Shown here: in pieces, positions 2,019-11,572 of the stretch | Position numbering within the stretch: the stretch's first letter is position 1 | Layout of the letters: each line of letters begins with the position of its first letter | Assembly: GCA_004299545.1 (NCBI GenBank) | Contig: SCRB01000266.1 | Span: 1-11,803 of the forward strand | Direction of reading: 5' to 3' | DNA length: 11,803 nucleotides | DNA from: Rhizobiaceae bacterium | Lineage (GTDB): Bacteria > Pseudomonadota > Alphaproteobacteria > Rhizobiales > Rhizobiaceae | The notes under the pieces: model-generated | Seen by the model: only the letters and a program-made list of their open reading frames with translations | Told to the model about the DNA's origin: nothing | The model's database searches: none | Program-made: the position numbers and the translations under genes

Positions 2019-2297
2019 TTAGCTCGCCAGCCCGTTCAGAGGCAAGTCAAAGCGATAATCAACGATCGGCGTTTCTGAACCCTCTATGGTTAGTCTAGCG
2101 GTAAGGAGCGCTTTTTGAAAACTCTTGGTCTCGCGGGCAGAAACCGGCATCAACACGCGCTCGATTACGGCTATCTGCCTGCACTTTTCTAGCACCTTCA
2201 ATCTCAACTGGCGCCTCTGCGCCCAGAACGAGCCGATAATCGTTACGGCGCCGATCACGGTTATGCCAACGCAAATGCGGACGCGCTGAAGCAGAGG
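2019..2297 (-). pseudogene. Possible remnant of a small membrane-protein gene
   Basis: The 1983-2385 stretch has no convincing intact gene. On the minus strand a frame is open from a TAA at 2298-2300 to a stop at 2019. It begins without ATG and reads as a hydrophobic stretch (ICVGITVIGAVTIIGSFW), then a basic region (AQRRQLRLKVLEKC) and a polar tail. This resembles the membrane-anchor-plus-basic-segment layout of many small bacterial membrane proteins. The first start-like codon, GTG at 2258, would remove half of the membrane segment, so the 5' end appears lost. I do not recognise the family. It may also be a chance open frame. Confidence 0.25.
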
Positions 2298-2344
2298 TTA
2301 TCTGCCTGATGTTCTCCATCGTTCATTCCTCCCCGAAGGATGCA

Positions 2345-2372
2345 GCCGGCGACGGCCCGGGCCGCCGCCGGC
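2345..2372 (-). terminator. GC-rich hairpin after the hsp20 operon
   Basis: A 12-bp stem (2345-2356 with 2361-2372) closes a CCGG loop. The only imperfection is one position that is a G-U pair in minus-strand RNA. It begins 13 bp after the stop codon of the distal Hsp20 gene. It suits transcription termination or 3'-end protection of the hsp20 mRNA. No U-tract follows, so classical intrinsic termination is not assured. Confidence 0.5.
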
Positions 2373-2385
2373 GCCCAGCCATGCG

Positions 2386-2892
2386 TCAGCTCTTGACGGC
2401 GATGCGCTTGACCTGCGATTGCGCCTTCTCGCTCTTCGGCAAGGTCACGGTCAGCACGCCGTTCTTGAAGTGGGCGTCGACCTTGTCCTCCTTGACCTCG
2501 TAGCCGATCGGGATACGCCGCTCGAAGAGGCCGTAGTAACGCTCGGAGAACTGCTTATCCTTGTCTTCCGTCTCGGAGTGCTTTTCGCCCTTCAGCGTCA
2601 GCACGCCGTCATTGAGCAGGACCTCGATATCCTTGTCCTCCAGGCCCGGCACTTCGGCCGTCACCTTAATCTCCTTTTCGTTGTCGGAGATCTCGACGTT
2701 GGGCCAGGCGGCGCCGAAAGTGGTAGACCTGCCGATGGCGGGCAGGCGGCTGTCGAAAGAACGGAAGACATCATCAAACAGCCGGTTCACCTGCCGGTGC
2801 AGGGACAGGAAGGGATCCCGTTCGTCGTCACGGAAGACGCTCGGCAGTTGATCGCCATTGCGACTCCAGGGAATCAGATCACGGACACTCAT
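2386..2892 (-). CDS. Small heat-shock protein, Hsp20/alpha-crystallin family (first type)
   Basis: This is an ATP-independent cytoplasmic holdase that binds unfolding proteins and hands them to ATP-dependent chaperones. The 168-residue product has a variable N-terminal arm (1-60, with RQVNRLFDDVFRSF). Its alpha-crystallin domain spans about 63-153: WPNVEISDNEKEIKVTAEVPGL in two blocks, GVLTLKGEK, YGLFERRIPI and the signature NGVLTVTLPK (144-153). The tail carries an I-x-V motif (IAV, 164-166) for oligomer assembly. Length and motifs are complete. The start ATG at 2892 is preceded by AAAGGAGAAG at good spacing. It lies 97 bp downstream of a second, divergent Hsp20 on the same strand, so the two were probably co-transcribed. 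It differs clearly from that neighbour in sequence, so this is a pair of distinct sHSP classes and not a recent duplication. Confidence 0.95.
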   Translation of the reverse strand: MSVRDLIPWSRNGDQLPSVFRDDERDPFLSLHRQVNRLFDDVFRSFDSRLPAIGRSTTFGAAWPNVEISDNEKEIKVTAEVPGLEDKDIEVLLNDGVLTLKGEKHSETEDKDKQFSERYYGLFERRIPIGYEVKEDKVDAHFKNGVLTVTLPKSEKAQSQVKRIAVKS

Positions 2893-2924
2893 TGTTCTTC
2901 TCCTTTCGTTCGTTCGATTGACAC
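2889..2924 (-). other. Possible 11-codon leader reading frame coupled to hsp20
   Basis: An AAGGAG motif precedes a GTG at 2924. An 11-codon frame from it ends in TGA, which overlaps the ATG of the downstream Hsp20 gene as ATGA. The AAGGAGAAG motif occurs twice, once before this GTG and once before the hsp20 ATG. Translational coupling is possible, but a frame this short can arise by chance. Confidence 0.15.
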
Positions 2925-2935
2925 GACTTCTCCTT

Positions 2936-2960
2936 GGCGCCGGGTGTCAAGCCCGGCGCC
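2936..2960 (-). promoter_or_regulatory. Perfect 9-bp hairpin between the two hsp20 genes
   Basis: GGCGCCGGG (2936-2944) and CCCGGCGCC (2952-2960) form a perfect stem with a 7-nt loop. It lies 29 bp after the stop of the promoter-proximal Hsp20 gene and 43 bp before the start of the next. No U-tract follows. It could be a partial terminator, an mRNA processing or stabilising element that sets the ratio of the two proteins, or part of a leader of the downstream gene. Confidence 0.5.
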
Positions 2961-2989
2961 CGATAAGTCGCTGATGCTGGCAAAAGCCG

Positions 2990-3466
2990 TCAGGCGGCCT
3001 GCTTCTCGGCCTCGATCTTCTTGGTCGAGACTTTCGGCGTCGTCGTCTCGGCTGCGATCTCGATCCGGCGCGGCTTCATCTCTTCAGGAATCTCGCGCTT
3101 CAGATCGATTGTCAGCAGGCCGTTTACGAGGCTGGCATTCACGACCTTGACATGGTCGGCCAGCTCGAAACGCCGCTGGAACGCACGGCCGGCGATGCCG
3201 CGATGCAAATACTGGCCGTCGTCCTCCGTCGCCTTCTGACCCGCCACCATGAGCATGTTCTGCTCCTGTGTAATGGTCAGTTCGTCCTGGTCGAATCCGG
3301 CCAACGCCATCGAAATGCGGTAGTCGTCCTCGCCGGTCTTGACGATGTCGTAGGGCGGCCAGTTGTCGACCTGATGATCGACGCGGCTCGCGGCTTCGAG
3401 CGCATTCACCATTCGGTCGAAACCGATGCTCGACCTGAACAGGGGAGAATAGTCCAACGTTCTCAT
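2990..3466 (-). CDS. Small heat-shock protein, Hsp20/IbpA-like (rhizobial ROSE-controlled type)
   Basis: This is an ATP-independent holdase of the IbpA-like class typical of rhizobia. The 158-residue product opens MRTLDYSPLFRSSIGFDRM, a hallmark N terminus of this class. Its alpha-crystallin domain spans about 36-125: WPPYDIVKTGEDDYRISMAL, then AGFDQDELTI, HRGIAGRAFQRRF and NGLLTIDLKRE. An I-x-I motif (IEI, 135-137) is followed by a charged tail rich in Lys, Glu and Ala. The frame stays open far upstream. The ATG at 3466 is chosen because it starts the family N terminus and has GGAGGA at 3474-3479 at ideal spacing. An in-frame ATG at 3481 would overlap the ribosome site and the ROSE hairpin and is unlikely. 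It is the promoter-proximal gene of the pair and is probably induced by heat at transcription and translation. Confidence 0.95.
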   Translation of the reverse strand: MRTLDYSPLFRSSIGFDRMVNALEAASRVDHQVDNWPPYDIVKTGEDDYRISMALAGFDQDELTITQEQNMLMVAGQKATEDDGQYLHRGIAGRAFQRRFELADHVKVVNASLVNGLLTIDLKREIPEEMKPRRIEIAAETTTPKVSTKKIEAEKQAA

Positions 3467-3468
3467 AG

Positions 3469-3553
3469 CTACATCCTCCATTGAGCAACATAGATACGAG
3501 GAGCGCCAAGAAGCGGCGCTCCTTGACCTTGCCGGCCCACGTCGGGCGCCGGC
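3469..3553 (-). promoter_or_regulatory. ROSE-type RNA thermometer in the hsp20 leader
   Basis: In minus-strand RNA the leader folds into three consecutive hairpins. The first pairs 3544-3553 with 3531-3538 (5-nt loop, two bulged bases). The second pairs 3515-3523 with 3499-3507 (9 bp, 7-nt loop). The third pairs CTATGTTGCT (3493-3484) with AGGATGTAG (3477-3469), with a 6-nt loop and one unpaired G. That arm contains most of the Shine-Dalgarno site and ends two bases before the ATG. The TTGCT facing AGGA with an extra G is the defining feature of ROSE elements, which block translation of rhizobial small heat-shock mRNAs at low temperature and melt on heating. Position, target gene and motif all agree. 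The fold was derived by eye. Confidence 0.82.
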
Positions 3554-3560
3554 GATAACG

Positions 3561-3589
3561 ATTTGGGAATTGCCTTCCGCTGCGTCAAG
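3561..3589 (-). promoter_or_regulatory. RpoH-like promoter of the hsp20 operon
   Basis: On the minus strand, CTTGAC (3589-3584) and CCCAAAT (3567-3561) are separated by 16 bp. This fits alphaproteobacterial heat-shock sigma promoters, although CTTGAC also suits the housekeeping factor. A start about 7 bp downstream would fall at the 5' edge of the first ROSE hairpin, which supports the assignment. Confidence 0.5.
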
Positions 3590-4059
3590 GGGGGGCGTGT
3601 CATCCTTTGTGCAGGGCCGACCGGCAGCACCCTGCGACGGCAAAACGTCATGAGGCTTCCCTGCCGGAACTTCGGACCGCGATCGCCGTTTTGGCGAAAA
3701 CATGCAGAATATCGGGTGTCGACATGGCGACCGATCTTCTTGAGCCTGGAGACCAAAATAGCCCATGGAGTGTTGGCTGGGCCTGCGAGCGCGCTGTCCG
3801 CGAAACCGCATCGCGAAATGACCTGCGGGCGGATCGCGTGAGGAAACCGTCAACGACAAGTCCATGGAGCCGATGTCCAAATGCCCTGGGCGAACTGTCG
3901 CTCACCCAAGAGCCAAGGACGCGCGGCGGCGCACCCCGTGGAACGATTGCAAGATCGATAGATAAGCCGACGGCGTGGGGCCGAAATCGCTTCATTTTCG
4001 CGGATGGCGCGCCAATGCCGCGCATTATTTGCCTCAGCGGTACTCCCCTTACGGTCGAC
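3590..4059. other. Gene-free stretch between the hsp20 promoter and the tandem repeat
   Basis: Frames of 90-160 codons are open on both strands, but none has a recognisable domain, a convincing ribosome site or a sensible composition. No inverted-repeat ends of an insertion sequence are recognised. It may be decayed sequence left by rearrangement. Confidence 0.4.
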
Positions 4060-4123
4060 AACCCCAGGTCTATGCAGCGGGCAGCGTTTTAAACCCCAGG
4101 TCTATGCAGCGGGCAGCGTTTTA
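4060..4123. repeat. Perfect 32-bp tandem direct duplication
   Basis: Two identical 32-bp units lie head to tail (4060-4091 and 4092-4123). Each starts AACCCCAGGTCTATG and ends GGGCAGCGTTTTA. Identity ends exactly at the unit borders on both sides. There are only two copies and no spacer. The array lies 17 bp upstream of the RpoH-like promoter of the next gene. It could be a recent slippage duplication or a doubled regulator-binding site. Confidence 0.9.
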
Positions 4124-4140
4124 GAGGAATCGGCTGCGCA

Positions 4141-4169
4141 CTTGGCAACGGCGACTTCAATGCCCATCT
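4141..4169 (+). promoter_or_regulatory. RpoH-like promoter of the 72-residue protein gene
   Basis: CTTGGC (4141-4146) and CCCATCT (4163-4169) are separated by 16 bp. With the preceding G, the second element matches the heat-shock sigma consensus CCCCATNT at all but one position. It lies 29 bp before the start codon at 4199, which suits a short leader. Confidence 0.5.
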
Positions 4170-4198
4170 GGTTCGCCGGACAATTGACGGAGGATAAA

Positions 4199-4417
4199 AT
4201 GCCTATGACGCGCAAAGAGGTCACCTCGGTCCTTGGTCCCGTGGACGAGGCAACCATCGCCGAGATCATATCGACGGGGGCTACGGTTGAGGAATTGAGG
4301 GAAGCCTGGGCCTGGGCGTTCGGTGACGAAGCGCTGATGAGCGCAGGCCGTCCGCTGCCCGGGACACGTGTTGGCGAACTGATCGCATTGCTGGAACCGG
4401 AACCGACCGAGGAGTGA
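4199..4417 (+). CDS. Small acidic hypothetical protein (72 residues)
   Basis: The product is soluble, mostly helical in appearance and acidic, with no signal peptide or membrane segment. It reads MPMTRKEVTSVLGPVDEATI, then AEIISTGATVEELREAWAWA, a GRPLPGTRVGELIALLEPE segment and an acidic end. I do not know a named domain for it. The pattern resembles small hypothetical proteins found in alphaproteobacterial genomes. GGAGG sits five bases before the ATG at 4199. A longer upstream opening of the frame crosses the tandem repeat and is not credible. An RpoH-like promoter directly upstream and heat-shock genes on both sides suggest a stress-related role, which is inference. Confidence 0.75.
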   Translation: MPMTRKEVTSVLGPVDEATIAEIISTGATVEELREAWAWAFGDEALMSAGRPLPGTRVGELIALLEPEPTEE

Positions 4418-4507
4418 CCGCGAAATACATGCCGCGCACACGTCACTTACTGCTCGACAGAATGCGACTATTTGCCCTTAAGAGACGACTCAAAAACGGA
4501 GGAAATG

Positions 4508-4840
4508 ATGCACGACGCCTGGTTTTCCGAACTCGTGATGCTTCAGTTCGCGCAAGGCCCCGCGCGCAAGGTGGCCAGCAGCTTCGAGGCGCTCGAATGC
4601 CTGGATCAGGAGTGGCCCGAATGGGCGCGGGGCTGCAGCTGGCGCGCCGCTTGTCGGGCCTGCCGGGACGCGCTGGAAGGGTGGCGCGGCGCCCACGATG
4701 CACGTAGGGCATTTGTGAAGGCGGCTGAAAGGGCTGGGCTTGCGATCGTGCGCGAGCCTGTCCGGCCGCGGAAAGGGGCGCCCGCGTTCCGGCTGCCGCA
4801 AGGCGGCCCGCAAAAGCTCTCCCTCAGTTCAGCGGGATAA
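4508..4840 (+). CDS. DUF982 family protein (first copy)
   Basis: DUF982 proteins are small proteins of unknown function that are abundant in rhizobia. The 110-residue product follows the family pattern: MHDAWFSELVML at the N terminus, SSFEALECLDQEWPEW, a CRDALEG segment near residues 52-58, and ARRAFVKAAERAGL at about 65-78. A basic, proline-rich tail of about 30 residues (PVRPRKGAP) goes beyond the usual family end. Two ATGs follow GGAGG (4498-4502). The one at 4508 has the better spacing and gives the typical start. The 3' end overlaps the oppositely oriented usg gene by 17 bp, so the two are convergent. A second DUF982 gene lies at 8511-8807. Confidence 0.8.
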   Translation: MHDAWFSELVMLQFAQGPARKVASSFEALECLDQEWPEWARGCSWRAACRACRDALEGWRGAHDARRAFVKAAERAGLAIVREPVRPRKGAPAFRLPQGGPQKLSLSSAG

Positions 4841-5102
4841 TACCGTCGATGGCGCGCCATTCGGAAGGCTTGATCAGCCCGTGATGGGCGACCCGGACCG
4901 AATGCAGCGCGCCGTCGAGTTCTCGCGCCCAGTAATCGAGAAAGCCACGCAGTTCGGGAAACGCCGGCGCCAGATCGTATTCCTGCCAGACATAGAGCTG
5001 CAGAAGGCCCGGATGATCGGGCATGTGATAATGGATTTCCGCGGTCGTCAGGCCGTAGCCTTGCATCTGCAGGCGGAATTCCCTGCTTATCGTTGACGCC
5101 AT
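4824..5102 (-). CDS. usg: Usg family protein
   Basis: The name comes from a small gene found upstream of trpF in Caulobacter; biochemical function is unknown. The 92-residue product matches the family along its length: LQMQGYGLTTAEIHYHMPDH, then LLQLYVWQEYDLAPAFPELR, FLDYWARELDGALHSVRVAH and a final LIKPSEWRA. It is soluble, with no membrane segment. The ATG at 5102 is preferred because AAGGTGAG lies 7 bases upstream. A GTG four codons earlier would place the start inside that motif. It is 21 bp downstream of the hypothetical gene at 5124-5465 and very probably co-transcribed with it. No trp gene is nearby, so this copy is detached from its namesake context and sits in a chaperone cluster. 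Confidence 0.85.
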   Translation of the reverse strand: MASTISREFRLQMQGYGLTTAEIHYHMPDHPGLLQLYVWQEYDLAPAFPELRGFLDYWARELDGALHSVRVAHHGLIKPSEWRAIDGIIPLN

Positions 5103-5123
5103 TCGCTTTCTCACCTTTTTCTG

Positions 5124-5465
5124 TCAGGCATCCAGCCGATCCATGTTCGGCCGGTCGCAACAGTCAAAGGCGGCTGGCCTCGGCTCTCCGTCGAGCCGCC
5201 TCAGCGCGTCCATGATCTGATTGAAGGAAACAGGCTCGCTGCCGTCCGGCGGCTGACGCAGCGCCGGCATCGACTCTACGGCACAGGCGTCCGAGGCCCA
5301 GGACGACAGGATCGCCCGCTTTTCCTGCAGGTCGAGCGTTTCATCGGTGAGCACGTCGTCGGGATGCCGGAAATGGCGCGCCGGCGACAGCAGCCGGTCA
5401 AGCGTAGGATCGGATGTTTCGGGTACAAGAGAAGGGATGATCGGCGTAGGGTTCTGTCGGTCCAT
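5124..5465 (-). CDS. Conserved-looking hypothetical protein upstream of usg
   Basis: This 113-residue soluble protein has no named domain that I recognise. Its most distinctive part is HPDDVLTDETLDLQEKRAIL, followed by SSWASDACAVESMPALRQPP and an FNQIMDALRRLDG helix. That layout matches short hypothetical proteins I associate with rhizobial genomes, in which a segment of the form EKRAIL-SWASDA-AVE-P-LR recurs. A cysteine pair occurs in FDCCDRPN near the C terminus. GGAGG is spaced six bases from the ATG at 5465. It is the first gene of a two-gene minus-strand unit with usg, and its promoter region is shared divergently with groESL. Confidence 0.75.
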   Translation of the reverse strand: MDRQNPTPIIPSLVPETSDPTLDRLLSPARHFRHPDDVLTDETLDLQEKRAILSSWASDACAVESMPALRQPPDGSEPVSFNQIMDALRRLDGEPRPAAFDCCDRPNMDRLDA

Positions 5466-5619: not shown

Positions 5620-5646
5620 CTAACACTCCGTTCCGGCGAGTGCCAA
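5620..5646 (+). promoter_or_regulatory. CIRCE operator for HrcA
   Basis: CTAACACTC and GAGTGCCAA flank a 9-bp spacer. The consensus is TTAGCACTC-N9-GAGTGCTAA, so the left arm has two changes and the right arm has one. The spacing is exact. It lies 150 bp upstream of groES, the standard location of CIRCE. HrcA binds such sites and represses chaperone genes until unfolded protein occupies GroEL. No hrcA gene lies in the window, so the repressor would act in trans. Confidence 0.88.
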
Positions 5647-5663
5647 AATTTTTTCCAAGCCCC

Positions 5664-5693
5664 CTTGAAATCGAAAAACGGCAAAACCAGATC
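5664..5693 (+). promoter_or_regulatory. RpoH-like promoter of groESL
   Basis: CTTGAA (5664-5669) is followed after 17 bp by CCAGATC (5687-5693). The first element is a good heat-shock sigma match and the second is imperfect. It is downstream of CIRCE, so transcripts from here would not carry the operator. Confidence 0.4.
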
Positions 5694-5796: not shown

Positions 5797-6111
5797 ATGA
5801 CGTTCCGTCCATTGCATGACCGTATCCTGGTCCGCCGCATCGAGGCCGACGAAAAAACGGCCGGCGGCATCATCATCCCCGACACCGCCAAGGAAAAGCC
5901 GCAGGAGGGCGAGGTGATCGCCGTCGGCCCCGGCGCACGCGACGAAAGCGGCAAGCTCGTCGAGCTCGACGTGAAAGCCGGCGACCGCATCCTCTTCGGC
6001 AAATGGTCCGGCACCGAGATCAAGCTCGACGGCGAGGACCTGCTCATCATGAAGGAAAGCGACGTGATGGGCGTGATCGAGGATGCCGGCACGCTGAGGA
6101 AAGCGGCCTGA
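5797..6111 (+). CDS. groES: Co-chaperonin GroES (Hsp10)
   Basis: GroES forms the heptameric lid of the GroEL chamber in the cytoplasm. The 104-residue product begins [20 protein letters not shown]. It contains the mobile-loop region [20 protein letters not shown] (20-39), whose GGIIIP binds GroEL. The core then reads [40 protein letters not shown] and ends [15 protein letters not shown]. Length is normal for alphaproteobacterial GroES. The frame is open upstream, but the ATG at 5797 gives the conserved N terminus and has GAAGGAG six bases before it. groEL follows after 51 bp in the same operon, under the CIRCE operator. Many Hyphomicrobiales carry several groESL copies, so this could be a primary or an accessory set. 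Confidence 0.98.
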
Positions 6112-7791
<1,680 letters not shown>

Positions 7792-11098: not shown

Positions 11099-11572
11099 CT
11101 AAGGTGATTGATAAGCGAGCCGCCGCGATCGCGAGAGGGGCCGGTATTCGGCCACGGTCAGGGTCGTGATGTCACCGACGCCGCGTTCGTCGAGATTGCC
11201 GGCGGAGGCATGATGGGCCGCATGCGCACGGCGCCAGTAATCGTATGGCGTGAAGGTCAAGACGCCGATCAGCCGACCGGTCCAGTCATCCGCCCTGCGA
11301 CGAGCGAAGAATGACCCGTGACCGCAATCGTGCTGGATCATAAACAGGCGAAGCAGAAAGCCCGCCGCCGGAATGGTCAGGGCAATACCCCACCAGAGGC
11401 CATGATGCACCGCGACCGCAGCGAGCACCCAGAGAGCGACAAACGGGACGAGCGTCACTCCCAGTTCGAGCATGCTGCGGCCTCTCTGGGGTGTCCGATA
11501 GGTGGAGAGGATTTTGGGCCAGGCCCGTTCGCCGGCTTCAGTAAGAGGAATGGGTGCGGCGGCTGGCGTCAA
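11099..11572 (-). pseudogene. Fatty-acid desaturase, truncated at its C terminus
   Basis: Membrane di-iron fatty-acid desaturases introduce double bonds into acyl chains and adjust membrane fluidity. The 157-residue frame matches the N-terminal half: an EAGERAWPKILSTYR entry segment, two hydrophobic segments (about 36-54 and 59-78), the first histidine box HDCGH (81-85), then WTGRLIGVLTFTPYDYWRR and the second box HAAHH (117-121). After LAYQSP it stops, where full-length relatives of roughly 340 residues continue to further membrane segments and a third HxxHH box. Three metal-binding boxes are needed, so this product should be inactive. The start is TTG at 11572, directly after an in-frame TGA, with AGGAAAG nearby. 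The break near 11108 marks a deletion or rearrangement junction next to the chaperone cluster. Confidence 0.8.

Follow-up and report, generated by a model that had tools for sequence, protein, structure and literature searches.

Hsp20 gene pair and its surroundings

The window, by which we mean the entire 11,803-nucleotide stretch of DNA that was analyzed, contains two genes for small heat-shock proteins on the minus strand, preceded by an RNA leader and a likely heat-shock promoter. These features are listed below; cells refer to the leader alignments described in the next section.

3584..3589, minus strand: -35 element CTTGAC of a likely RpoH (sigma-32) promoter; CTTG in 80 of 81 leaders, top profile score
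3561..3567, minus strand: -10 element CCCAAAT, 16-base spacer; A at the fourth position and T at the last unchanged in 81 of 81 leaders
3460..3553, minus strand: ROSE RNA thermometer (RF00435, 74.2 bits, full length), 87-base leader plus first codons
3531..3553, minus strand: hairpin I, predicted by folding; 80.6% of cells paired in the 16-row alignment, 69.8% in the 27-row alignment
3500..3522 at 37 C, minus strand: hairpin II, predicted by folding; 95.3% of cells paired (16 rows), 59.9% (27 rows)
3462..3500, minus strand: hairpin III, predicted by folding; 95.1% of cells paired (27 rows), ATG in the lower stem
2990..3466, minus strand: small heat-shock protein 1, Hsp20, 158 aa (PF00011, E 7.7e-20), ATG at 3466
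2386..2892, minus strand: small heat-shock protein 2, Hsp20, 168 aa (PF00011, E 2e-22)

Relatives of this locus were collected by scanning reference genomes with the Hsp20 protein, and the best 80 of 142, which share 69-84% identity, were used. By title, 56 of these 80 are Mesorhizobium or Rhizobium, the others including Shinella, Brucella pseudintermedia, Devosia, and Methylorubrum. For the second Hsp20 gene, 77 of the best 80 loci have a relative directly downstream and on the same strand, and the two hsp20 genes are likely co-transcribed. The stretch between them (2893-2992, minus strand) holds a strong hairpin rich in G+C, GGCGCCGGG...CCCGGCGCC, which lacks a T run and perhaps sets relative mRNA stability; of 77 related loci checked crudely over the same interval, 45 contain a perfect inverted repeat of 8 bases. 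We also observed matches to the alphaproteobacterial sRNA ar35 on the downstream side of related hsp20 genes, at 4193-4306 and 5053-5182 in locus L032 and at 5949-6081 in locus L081.

The stress-gene cluster of the window consists of a FAD oxidoreductase with an HMA domain, the two hsp20 genes, a DUF982 gene, usg, groES, groEL, another DUF982 gene, and a gene for Hsp90. The gene at 6163-7791 is taken to encode GroEL by eye from its translation. A 32-base unit is perfectly duplicated in tandem at 4060-4123, in the stretch that separates the hsp20 operon from the gene after it. At the far end of the window, an open reading frame of 157 aa (11099-11572, minus strand) matches a fatty-acid desaturase profile at positions 3-82 of 253 only, the first third; it stops within the window and appears to be cut short or broken.

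A ROSE element over the ribosome site

The Rfam ROSE family (RF00435) is matched by 94 bases, 3553-3460 on the minus strand, over the full length of the model (positions 1-94 of 94), with a score of 74.2 bits against a gathering score of 45 and an E-value of 4.9e-10 for the whole window. The first-pass annotation had claimed a complete ROSE thermometer in front of the Hsp20 gene and had proposed a covariance-model search as a check; the full-length match bears the claim out. The scan of the window returned no other Rfam family above its cut-off. A second thermometer in the window was considered, and a permissive Rfam scan gave four extra matches, every one of them under its own gathering score. 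Counted from where the ROSE match begins, the leader is 87 bases long and leads up to the ATG at 3466, and the gene that follows it encodes a PF00011 protein (3466-2990), as is expected of a ROSE element, which stands in the leader of a small heat-shock gene.

Three consecutive hairpins, another claim of the earlier annotation, are seen in the predicted fold at 37 C, in which hairpin I spans 3553-3531, hairpin II 3522-3500, and hairpin III 3499-3463 of the minus strand. At 20-30 C, hairpin II is moved to 3529-3502 and hairpin III spans 3500-3462. The minimum free energy (MFE) of the 94 bases at 37 C is -43.9 kcal/mol, whereas shuffled versions average -33.9 (z -2.8); of 200 such shuffles, 1 reaches an equally good fold. 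Within hairpin III, TTGCT (3488-3484) pairs with the ribosome site GGAGGA (3479-3474) and leaves G3486 unpaired. This is the UYGCU-type pairing with an unpaired G that marks ROSE elements, and it corresponds to the previously described pairing of CTATGTTGCT with AGGATGTAG. Hairpin III had been said to end two bases from the ATG. This holds for its upper stem, which stops at 3469, two bases ahead of the ATG (3466-3464), but not for its lower stem, which resumes below a T3494/C3468 mismatch and pairs the ATG itself, both in the Rfam structure and in the MFE folds from 20 to 50 C. Across 79 distinct rows, the three bases of the ATG are paired in 74 of 78, 76 of 78, and 78 of 79 cells.

The core of the element is strongly conserved. 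UYGCU...AGGA is found upstream of the Hsp20 gene in all 80 relatives (the best 80 of 142), and in the 81 rows formed by the window and the leaders of these relatives, TTGCT, the G within it, and GGAGGAT are unchanged throughout. When 20 loci drawn from the 80 were scanned with Rfam, ROSE scored above its cut-off in 18; the same scan gave no ROSE match above the cut-off in L029 and L084.

Covariation was counted on the structure taken from the window's own fold. A first alignment, A1 (25 rows), was set aside because L006 and L007 were wrongly oriented. In A2 (16 rows, 15 distinct), these two rows were turned and L009 was added. A2 excludes 10 rows with a diverged middle (L010, L036, L050, L055, L066, L068, L070, L073, L075, and L080), and this choice of rows favors the structure. 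A3 (27 rows, 25 distinct) comprises A2, its 10 excluded rows, and L004. Over all 32 pairs, 88.5% of cells are paired in the 16 rows versus 44.6-49.3% with slid partners, and 79.4% versus 39.3-52.3% in the 27 rows. Both sides are changed in 11 of the 32 pairs in the 16 rows, a count reached by 0 of 500 shuffles. The 27 rows again give 11 such pairs (2 of 500 shuffles as high), and so do the same rows slid by -1, with more such cells (25 versus 21 unslid). Further pair types are no more numerous than in the shuffles, 72 of 500 being as high for the 16 rows and 258 of 500 for the 27 rows. Covariation is thus clear on the selected 16 rows and weak on the full 27, and it depends on the rows chosen; the 27-row alignment is itself poor in the region of hairpin II, which is paired in 59.9% of cells. 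For hairpin III, a change on both sides is found in 1 of 14 pairs in either alignment. Given the 27-row counts, hairpin III is backed by conserved pairing and not by covariation, and hairpins I and II are moderately backed. It is the model match and the invariant core, rather than covariation, that set the odds of ROSE membership.

The whole leader was also folded across temperatures with ViennaRNA, an energy model that is coarse for such imperfect pairs, so that the exposure figures neither confirm nor refute a thermometer. On average, bases of the ribosome site are unpaired with a probability of 0.229 at 20 C, 0.254 at 25 C, 0.345 at 42 C, and 0.402 at 50 C, and hairpin III is kept in the MFE structure through 50 C. 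Between 25 and 42 C, the range proposed in the first-pass annotation, exposure does rise, but the rise is slight and gradual, and the folds show no sharp opening. Because folding shows only this gradual increase, the heat-opening of hairpin III is predicted from its membership in the ROSE family.

The promoter and its likely sigma factor

The promoter described earlier as CTTGAC-N16-CCCAAAT is located at 3589-3584 and 3567-3561 and is conserved in the 80 relatives. Between its CCCAAAT box and the ROSE match lie 7 bases, and transcription is predicted to start at approximately 3553-3555. Of the 81 leaders, 80 have CTTG at the aligned position, and L068 has ATTG instead. The sixth base of the -35 element is A in 50 rows and C in 31 rows of the 81-row alignment, and two promoter flavors can be distinguished by eye among the leader rows listed, CTTGACG with TTCCCARAT and CTTGAAA with GAATTATAT.

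The E. coli sigma-32 consensus is quoted as CTTGAA-N13-18-CNCCATAT in an excerpt of PMC3669281. The window's CTTGAC agrees with it at 5 of 6 specified bases and its TCCCAAAT at 5 of 7, the two being 15 apart in this register. A strict RpoH-like pattern had no match across the window, with 1.36 expected by chance; a looser version was present in 77 of 81 leaders and absent in L037, L068, L073, and L084. One RpoH protein above the family cut-off was found in the window's genome (TIGR02392, 378 bits versus 323.1), a draft of 1067 contigs with 85.2% completeness. Recognition of the promoter by RpoH is likely.

A profile built from the 80 other leaders ranks the hsp20 promoter as the top site of the window, with a score of 22.4 compared with a maximum of 14.9 in 30 mononucleotide shuffles, although this rank reflects conservation among homologous leaders and is not an independent test. 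For the same reason, the profile tests a site near groES better than it does the hsp20 site. This second-ranked, RpoH-like site, CTTGAA...ACCAGAT (5663-5693, plus strand), scores 20.7; the likely start of groES, placed by eye near 5797, follows approximately 100 bases later. A degenerate CIRCE-like inverted repeat with 3 mismatches to the CIRCE consensus (0.01 expected) is found at 5620-5646 on the plus strand, just upstream, not downstream, of the groES promoter.

Interpretation and relation to known systems

We conclude that the locus is almost certainly a two-gene Hsp20 operon that has an RpoH-type promoter and, ahead of its first gene, a ROSE-type RNA thermometer. As long as the temperature is normal, both the ribosome site and the start codon would be held in hairpin III by imperfect pairing, which the unpaired G and G-U pairs make weaker. 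Heat would loosen this hairpin and the first Hsp20 would be translated, and RpoH would increase the amount of transcript. The stacking of transcriptional and translational control proposed earlier is supported by the ROSE match, the conserved promoter, and the RpoH gene, with the transcription start and the heat response being predicted.

Three other readings were weighed against a ROSE thermometer under RpoH control. That the hairpins arose by chance is hardly credible: the matched stretch is 61% G+C, and random hairpins are common in such a leader, but the full-length covariance match, the z of -2.8, the core that is invariant in 81 rows, and the 95.1% pairing of hairpin III refute it. It is improbable, too, that the element is ROSE by sequence yet control is mainly transcriptional through RpoH, the thermometer adding little within the growth range. 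The small growth in predicted ribosome-site exposure from 25 to 42 C is what such a reading would expect, although the folding energies take no account of the non-canonical pairs that ROSE elements are reported to contain. Purely transcriptional control would not require the anti-ribosome-site sequence and its unpaired G to be invariant in 81 of 81 rows. In favor of mainly transcriptional control, the excerpted text of PMC3989490 describes one ROSE-bearing sHSP gene of Mesorhizobium loti that showed no overexpression following the heat shock applied there.

We likewise see little chance that the promoter is independent of RpoH and belongs to the housekeeping sigma-70 type. A -35 element TTGACG with another -10 element has been predicted for the M. 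loti operon (PMC3989490, in excerpt), which is similar according to its published description; our 81-row alignment suggests a conserved -10 element different from that one. The same excerpt cites the Sinorhizobium meliloti homologs as RpoH-dependent, and the two conserved boxes, CTTGA and one like CCCAAAT, are similar to the sigma-32 consensus of E. coli as quoted from PMC3669281. No sigma-70-like site was found in 2280-4300, which argues only weakly against this reading, as 0.5 were expected by chance.

The distribution of ROSE was surveyed in the window's own genome and 60 relatives, a total of 61. ROSE was found at E <=0.001 in 7 of these, 6 of them above the cut-off, in a search whose strict filters lose weak matches. 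Three of the four genomes of the window's genus have ROSE; the fourth, G001, gave no match in this strict-filter search. The Hsp20 identity to that of the window is 70-100% in the three genus genomes with ROSE and at best 54% in G001, and for this reason ROSE seems to go with an accessory Hsp20 operon. In G002, one of the three genus genomes with ROSE, two identical ROSE copies (L003 and L009) lie approximately 97 kb apart in opposite orientation, which suggests that the operon was recently duplicated there. Among 72,556 plasmid records, 22 match region 2300-5200, 13 of these being called conjugative, and none of the 22 covers 80% of the region. As a tentative reading, which we hold to be somewhat less probable than its opposite, an accessory heat-tolerance cassette may be made up of the Hsp20 pair, ROSE, and the RpoH-type promoter and may move among rhizobial relatives along with groESL and usg, frequently by way of plasmids; if so, both layers of heat control would travel as a unit. 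A Mesorhizobium terrae plasmid (NZ_CP044217.1, 26907-31858) has the same order as the window, namely hsp20, hsp20, hypothetical, DUF982, usg, hypothetical, groES, and groEL. It differs in that IS21 and IS5 genes adjoin, and htpG and the FAD oxidoreductase are absent among the 15 features listed in its incomplete gene table.

The locus is one more well-supported ROSE instance with a conserved heat-shock promoter, and an ordinary member of a family that has been known from rhizobia for a long time. It shares with RF00435 the full-length match, the three hairpins, the UYGCU opposite the ribosome site, and the Hsp20 gene behind them, and it differs from the model only slightly, lacking four hairpin II positions and having four inserted bases. 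The primary ROSE papers are reportedly Nocker 2001 and Chowdhury 2006. ROSE in rhizobial sHSP genes is mentioned in an excerpt of PMC11784457. In M. loti, according to excerpts of PMC3989490, the sHSP genes mll2387 and mll2386 were the most heat-induced and form a two-gene operon with ROSE downstream of a promoter, as in the window, and the heat-induced usg (msl2390) and groEL (mlr2394) are close to it in locus number. In Pseudomonas ibpA, sigma-32 transcription and ROSE-type translation control have been established by experiment (PMC3669281, in excerpt). Because the M. loti operon and Pseudomonas ibpA are in print, as seen in these excerpts, stacked sigma-32 and ROSE control is not new, and general understanding is unchanged. 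The excerpt of PMC3669281 describes P. putida ibpA as having a sigma-32 promoter and a U(U/C)GCU thermometer, as here, both of which were tested there; it has two hairpins only and an ATG that is predicted to be unpaired, whereas the ATG of the window is predicted to be paired.
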